From Microbacteriaceae bacterium (GTDB lineage: Bacteria > Actinomycetota > Actinomycetes > Actinomycetales > Microbacteriaceae): a DNA stretch of 64,000 nt. A model generated the notes under the pieces. That model made no database searches. It was given only the letters and a program-made list of their open reading frames with translations, and had not been told where the DNA came from. Shown here one piece after another: positions 41,526-41,646 of the stretch. The position numbers were made by a program, and so were the translations under genes. Numbering within the stretch: the stretch's first letter is position 1; every line of letters starts with the position of its first letter. The stretch covers positions 124,001-188,000 of the forward strand of contig JAPSJW010000004.1 of the NCBI GenBank assembly GCA_031177985.1, read 5' to 3'.

Positions 41526-41531
41526 TACCCT
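41526..41531 (+). promoter_or_regulatory. Predicted -10 element of the leucine leader/leuA transcript
   Basis: TACCCT, 7 nt before the leader GTG at 41539. The leader peptide would be translated from a leaderless mRNA. Confidence 0.45.
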
Positions 41532-41538
41532 GGGAGAC

Positions 41539-41583
41539 GTGTTCGGAGCCCTCCTTCTCCTTAGTCGCCGCGGCGAGGCCTAG
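41539..41583 (+). CDS. Leucine-rich leader peptide upstream of leuA (transcription attenuation candidate)
   Basis: A 14-codon reading frame (GTG start, TAG stop) encoding VFGALLLLSRRGEA. Four consecutive Leu codons, CTC CTT CTC CTT, include two of the CTT type, which is rare in this genome. The last codons lie in the left arm of a strong hairpin (41568-41604). This is the arrangement of ribosome-mediated attenuation: scarcity of charged tRNA-Leu would stall the ribosome on the Leu run and change the folding downstream. Leader peptides at actinobacterial leuA are established; this one is my identification from sequence. Confidence 0.72.
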   Translation: MFGALLLLSRRGEA

Positions 41584-41604
41584 CTCAGGCCTTCCTCGCC
41601 GCGG
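41568..41604 (+). promoter_or_regulatory. leuA leader hairpin (attenuator or anti-terminator structure)
   Basis: CCGCGGCGAGG (41568-41578) is perfectly complementary to 41594-41604. Inside are two AGGCCT hexamers (41576-41581, 41587-41592), each self-complementary, which can pair in alternative ways. The stop codon of the leader peptide is in the loop. There is no U-run, as is usual in high-GC actinobacteria. Confidence 0.6.
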
Positions 41605-41646
41605 AGTTCGCCATCGGCTGACACACGACAACGAGGACAGAGAGCA

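Follow-up and report, generated by a model that had tools for sequence, protein, structure and literature searches.

Organization of the leuA upstream region

The window, i.e., the whole stretch of 64,000 nucleotides analyzed here, derives from a 3.16-Mb genome and carries leuA preceded by a short leader ORF rich in Leu codons and by a promoter-like element (Table 1). The upstream neighbor of the leader is an ABC permease-like ORF (named by eye) that ends at 41470, and the nearest named leuA genes among the matches listed were actinobacterial, mostly from Microbacteriaceae, to which we therefore assign the genome. The first-pass annotation had described the −10-like box, the GTG start and its 14 codons, the Leu run, the 11-bp hairpin and both AGGCCT words, and we confirmed all of their coordinates base for base, including the 7 nt that it counted between TACCCT and GTG. 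The left arm of the hairpin, termed P1, sits inside the 3′ end of the peptide ORF.

Table 1. Features of the leuA upstream region, in window positions
Feature	Position	Strand	Remark
Extended −10-like promoter element TGC-TACCCT	41523–41531	+	without recognizable −35
−10-like TACCCT	41526–41531	+	TGC directly before it (extended −10 type)
Leader peptide ORF	41539–41583	+	GTG 41539; 14 codons, MFGALLLLSRRGEA; TAG 41581–41583
Leu codon run CTC CTT CTC CTT	41551–41562	+	putative sensor codons; strand complementary to the leuA Shine–Dalgarno (SD) region
P1 hairpin	41568–41604	+	perfect 11 bp; arms 41568–41578 and 41594–41604
Two AGGCCT words	41576–41581 and 41587–41592	+	able to pair as inner helix P2
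Pseudoknot candidate	41588–41619	+	loop GGCC 41588–41591 with GGCT 41616–41619
leuA SD region GAGGA-CA-GAGAG	41633–41644	+	GAGGACAGAGAG from 41633; predicted pairing with the Leu run (base stem)
leuA, 2-isopropylmalate synthase	41647–43419	+	ATG at 41647; NCBIfam match

A sigma-70 scan at the leuA leader found nothing, and an Rfam scan of 41000–42200 gave no match above the gathering score and no relevant family. Antisense within leuA (41712–41805, minus strand), we observed a sub-threshold Rfam ALIL match of 26.4 bits (gathering score, 50), which we judged to be due to chance.

Conservation of the leader and of its RNA fold

We collected 110 leuA loci, 30 from whole genomes and the best 80 from a contig scan, and dropped three because their upstream region was identical to another, leaving 107 distinct leuA upstream regions. 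In these we searched for a TAnnnT box followed 4–10 nt later by a start codon whose frame held three or more Leu codons in a row; where several starts fitted, the one with the gap nearest 6 was chosen. The arrangement was present in 106 of the 107 regions, and the sole non-matching locus (L050) encodes Leu-Leu-Ile-Leu at the same place. The gap between the −10 box and the start was 6 nt in 91 of the 106, 7 nt in 11, 8 nt in one and 9 nt in three; the leader started with GTG in 65 and with ATG in 41, and TGn stood immediately 5′ of the −10 box in 81. In a class-wide sample of 68 further loci, comprising the best class-wide matches (L111–L138) and loci hand-picked for breadth (L139–L178), the architecture was found with gaps of 6–10 nt in 64 loci from 32 families, using a looser pattern that tolerated one I, V or F in the Leu run; one of these wider loci, L118, matched in a different register. 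The first-pass annotation was right to place a Leu leader peptide with alternative hairpins before leuA, and the recurrence of promoter box, start and Leu run in relatives and across the wider class shows that the leader is more than a chance arrangement.

The same comparison bears on how the leader would be translated. An SD-like 4-mer occurred between positions −15 and −5 (11 bases) of only one of the 106 leader starts; before the leuA starts, with a wider stretch of 16 bases, it occurred in 66 of 107. Because the −10 box lies at a near-fixed distance and an SD-like 4-mer is so rare at the leader starts, the comparison supports the leaderless translation proposed in the first-pass annotation, and the leader peptide is probably translated from a leaderless mRNA.

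The case for the leader is one of conservation, because the fold of the window leader by itself is unexceptional (z −1.7; 10 of 200 shuffles folded as well). In an alignment of 101 sequences, from which near-identical ones had been taken out, P1 was paired in 99.5% of 1010 cells. Five of its ten pairs were invariant, and 16 cells were altered on both sides, compared with 2.3 in shuffles. Across 171 loci, the best helix had 10 pairs in 162, nine in eight and eight in one, as counted by a best-of search with free position that landed on another helix in at least L089. The peptide downstream of the Leu run (SCRDES, SRRGEA and similar) thus appears to be largely dictated by the RNA pairing of P1. 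The candidate pseudoknot, in which the loop GGCC pairs with a downstream GGCT or GGCC, was paired in 85.9% of cells and had changes on both sides in three of four pairs, with the alignment being uncertain in this stretch. P1/P2 and the pseudoknot are predicted to be mutually exclusive helices. A comparison of the Leu run and its pairing in related genomes had been proposed at the outset; in it, the run was conserved, P1 showed compensatory changes, and the run covaried with the leuA SD as described below. Judged on these sequences, the leuA element is real and conserved, and it looks functional.

Proposed dual role of the Leu run in the control of leuA

The Leu run varies almost only at third bases. 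We paired each run with its own leuA SD and with permuted partners; when each genus was represented by a single genome (n = 30), own pairs averaged −11.1 kcal/mol and permuted pairs −9.8 kcal/mol, and none of 5000 permutations was as good. On all 107 regions the values were −10.1 and −9.0 kcal/mol (0 of 2000 permutations), with seven doubtful leuA starts included (L101, L102, L104, L105, L107, L109 and L110); relatedness inflates all of the permutation tests. Six of these starts were corrected for the later counts, and L101 stayed uncorrected in the CGAA and codon-exchange counts and is absent from the 30-genus set and the masking analysis. Exchange of C and T at the third base of one inner codon made the pairing weaker in 55 loci and stronger in 32, with 12 ties (n = 99); for the other inner codon it was weaker in 65 and stronger in 32, with five ties (n = 102). 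Of 17 loci with CG after the run, 14 had CGAA in the SD region, compared with 16 of 81 loci with AG after it; this comparison ignores kinship and leaves out nine other loci. Among synonymous variants, native runs had a moderate mean rank of 0.33 over 30 (0 = best). On the basis of the SD covariation, the exchange test and the CGAA pattern, CTC/CTT usage in the run appears to be shaped by the SD.

The first-pass annotation regarded CTT as rare in this genome and as selected to make stalling sensitive. Its rarity was borne out: among the 2025 Leu codons of 48 ORFs (200 aa or longer, selected by base composition without annotation), 37 were CTT (1.8%), and CTC was the commonest at 56%. Selection for stalling would be at best half of the explanation, since the inner codons track the leuA SD. 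The terminal Leu codon (41560–41562 in the window) was CTT in all 101 aligned sequences, and the run ended in CTT at 105 of 107 leuA loci and at 56 of 64 wider loci. The idea that this CTT is kept for SD pairing found no support, as CTT was better than CTC in nine and worse in 14 of 30 cases; a decoding role for it is conceivable. The notion that CTT is sensitive through a rare tRNA of its own was likewise unsupported. Among 46 tRNA genes, the nine longest were typed, four of them as tRNA-Leu (anticodons caa, tag, cag and gag), and none of the nine was an AAG tRNA-Leu. By wobble rules, a single tRNA with anticodon GAG should read both CTC and CTT.

The position of the ribosome was modeled by masking a stretch of the leader and predicting how open the SD then is, in 106 loci (L101 was left out). 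When the mask lay on the second of the last three Leu codons, the SD was predicted to be more open in 98 of 106 loci and, among the 30 one-per-genus loci, in 24. Mean openness was 0.306 in the free RNA; 0.575, 0.526 and 0.473 with the last three Leu codons masked in turn; and 0.362 with the stop masked. In the window it rose from 0.21 in the free RNA to 0.47–0.64 with Leu codons masked. A ribosome at the leader stop is likewise predicted to open the SD (78 of 106 loci, 27 of 30 genera; 0.51 against 0.21 free in the window), and the Leu stall exceeded the stop in 81 of 106 loci but in only 19 of 30 genera. In controls, free-state openness shifted little when SD segments were swapped between the 30 genera (0.316 vs. 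0.352, p = 0.37), and the gain fell from 0.186 to 0.123; randomizing the Leu third bases did shift it (0.366, p = 0.0007), with a gain of 0.137. A locus-specific, stall-dependent release of the SD thus drew little from these folding controls, and because they are weak the mechanism is supported mainly by covariation and anatomy.

We favor, with some confidence, the explanation that the locus is a LEU element, in which a leaderless Leu leader peptide and a conserved RNA fold control the translation of leuA. Its direct basis is the promoter spacing, the in-frame Leu run, the compensatory changes in P1, the candidate pseudoknot, the covariation of run and SD, and the failure to find an intrinsic terminator. 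In the free RNA, the SD would be covered by P1 and the base stem. With ample leucyl-tRNA, the ribosome would complete the leader peptide and depart, P1 would re-form, and the CUCCUU-like Leu run would pair with the leuA SD, leaving leuA weakly translated. When leucyl-tRNA is short, a ribosome held on the Leu codons would occupy the anti-SD strand, so that the SD would be free and leuA translated.

Published data from Streptomyces coelicolor bear on this proposal. Changes in its leuA leader had some effect, though a different one from that expected of classical attenuation (cited in Seliverstov 2005, PMC1262725), and that paper concludes that Leu codon mutations were without influence on regulation. 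These mutants argue against classical attenuation and also count against the proposed Leu-codon mechanism. Transcription of leuA may be controlled too, because the IclR-type regulator NdgR is described as binding weakly to the S. coelicolor leuA promoter (PMC4340878).

We considered whether the position of the ribosome could instead select between a terminating and a non-terminating fold before leuA, with intrinsic or Rho-dependent termination. The leuA leader does encode a Leu peptide and has predicted helices that exclude each other (P1/P2 or the pseudoknot), and ilvB leaders of the same phylum have been described with terminators, as related in PMC1262725 and PMC13236596. However, a pattern scan of 41440–41700 found no intrinsic terminator with a U-tract before leuA, which leaves attenuation of this intrinsic kind unsupported; Streptomyces lividans leuL1 is reportedly without a typical terminator in the account of PMC8079986; and a terminator model gives no reason for the Leu run to covary with the SD. 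We therefore regard transcription attenuation as unlikely.

It was proposed in 2005 that a regulatory protein, with orthologues of ML1624 carrying a DEAD-box helicase domain as candidates, binds the folded LEU RNA, and the peptide would then be incidental. Such binding would fit the very strong conservation seen in the P1 arms and at otherwise unexplained bases such as the terminal CTT, as well as the mutational data cited in PMC1262725. However, the run keeps its Leu codons in frame and hardly shifts relative to the promoter, and almost all changes within it fall in third bases; this coding constraint suggests translation. The search pattern itself required three Leu codons, and the weight of this argument lies in the number of loci that meet it (106 of 107). 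Protein binding with an incidental peptide seems improbable to us. That the leader merely sets basal expression, by reinitiation or translational coupling, and does not respond to leucine is highly improbable: although reinitiation at leader peptides has been proposed as a general bacterial effect that includes Actinobacteria, the 63 nt from the leader stop to the leuA start are far from the 10–11 bp peak reported there (PMC4833913), and four Leu codons ahead of a leucine gene would be unexpected.

Further copies of the element and comparison with known systems

We built a covariance model from 101 leuA elements, the window's own among them, and found a second LEU element in the same genome (G000:C18:178608–178696, minus strand; loci L223/L261) at 70.9 bits and E 3e-12, which was absent from the model's building set. 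It consists of TACCCT, 6 nt, an ATG opening MLPDRLLLLRRRDGS*, then P1, then a gene identified as leuC (TIGR00170, 742.8 bits). Two compensated base pairs distinguish this P1 from the one at leuA in the same genome. We searched 25 genomes of the family (G000–G024) and identified leuC through a LeuC sequence motif; 14 of them, counting the source genome, carry an element a short distance upstream of the gene. In 12 of the 14 (exceptions, L264 and L270), the −10 box, start and leader were recognized, and these leuC elements thus appear to carry a promoter of the leaderless type. In G020 (L269), a similar element precedes a gene that is unconfirmed as leuC. At the 14 leuC loci, the Leu strand paired better with its own SD than with permuted partners; this is a modest result, with 147 of 5000 permutations as good as the own pairs. 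If both elements work as proposed, the second would tie leuC to the same signal.

LEU-like elements were also observed before second leuA-like genes in G003 and G023 (L268 and L271), so some leuA paralogues may carry their own copy. In two genomes of other families (G036 and G052), an element precedes a short ORF and leuB (E 2e-5 and 3e-4). The leuB-linked elements (L224, ~485–720; L225, ~4640–4890, minus strand) have leaders reading Leu-Ile-Leu or Leu-Val-Ile-Leu by eye. A similar ORF of ~20–26 residues (RQALQESMD) lies between element and leuB in both, and aminotransferase- and citramalate-synthase-like ORFs, also named by eye, lie beyond leuB. Neither a leader nor a LeuC motif was found at the weakest match (G021:C1:249968, L272; E 0.003), which we attributed to chance. 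In a phylum sample searched with strict filters, 11 of 119 genomes, the source genome included, had a match at E ≤ 0.01; one of these matches (G301) lies outside the class, with a leuA-like gene (by eye) behind it.

No actinobacterial leuC leader was named among the literature matches listed, in a search covering mainly open-access papers. In the text of Seliverstov 2005 (PMC1262725) as searched, leuB and leuD do not occur, and the passages listed for "leuC" contain the word leucine. The LEU element before leuC is possibly new. We give about even weight to the broader reading that the LEU element is a portable leucine-responsive translation switch. One leaderless module of Leu run and anti-SD would serve leuA and leuC in one genome; elsewhere it would serve leuA paralogues and, with Ile/Val codons in the leader, a leuB operon. 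Each copy would have adapted together with its gene's own SD, and the 12-base run would act as both sensor and anti-SD. Codon choice in the run would then answer to RNA pairing in addition to decoding speed. In our view the parts of most value are the leuC copy, a second target that allows two copies to be compared in one cell, and the proposed double function of the Leu codons.

The leuA element itself is known, and the locus is ordinary for its class. An actinobacterial leuA lies downstream, the short ORF contains a Leu run, and a base stem with the SD is indicated by predicted pairing and covariation; the element described here is the published LEU element. Leifsonia xyli, a member of the Microbacteriaceae, was part of the 2005 genome set of Seliverstov et al., who named the LEU element of actinobacterial leuA (PMC1262725). 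They described a leader peptide with a Leu run, a pseudoknot, and a base stem in which the Leu codons pair with the leuA SD. The likeness extends to the Leu-run leader and the predicted base stem, and perhaps to a pseudoknot or alternative hairpin. The passages of that paper considered here describe leuA alone and leave a leaderless start unmentioned, whereas our comparison adds a leuC copy and a conserved promoter spacing. Its authors doubted attenuation because of the S. coelicolor mutants (Craster 1999) and favored a protein; what is added here is a sharp, testable proposal for the mechanism left open in 2005.

The first-pass annotation considered the leaderless start to be the unusual part of this leader. 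This view did not hold, as S. lividans leuL1 (MRFGLLLLSCRGEGL), upstream of leuA, has already been reported as leaderless and without a typical terminator in the relevant part of PMC8079986. The two share a Leu leader upstream of leuA, the absence of a recognizable terminator and probably the leaderless start; leuL1 belongs to another family, and its leaderless transcription is reported from RNA-seq, whereas ours is deduced from comparison. Since PMC1262725 and PMC8079986 report them, the leader and the leaderless start are both already published for a LEU-type element. Leaders of leuA have also been reported in Corynebacterium glutamicum and C. diphtheriae (PMC4046766, PMC3890552, PMC5784534).

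A general scheme of translation attenuation is described in PMC13236596, where the poly-Cys leaderless short ORFs of mycobacteria (Canestrari 2020) are given this term. As far as these are described there, they resemble the present leader in being leaderless short ORFs with a homocodon run as attenuator; they differ in the amino acid, cysteine, and in the genes concerned. In ermC/cat-type translation attenuation, a ribosome stalled on the leader frees a sequestered SD, and induction is by a drug. In the LEU element, by comparison, the trigger would be an empty Leu codon, and the Leu codons themselves would form the anti-SD strand.
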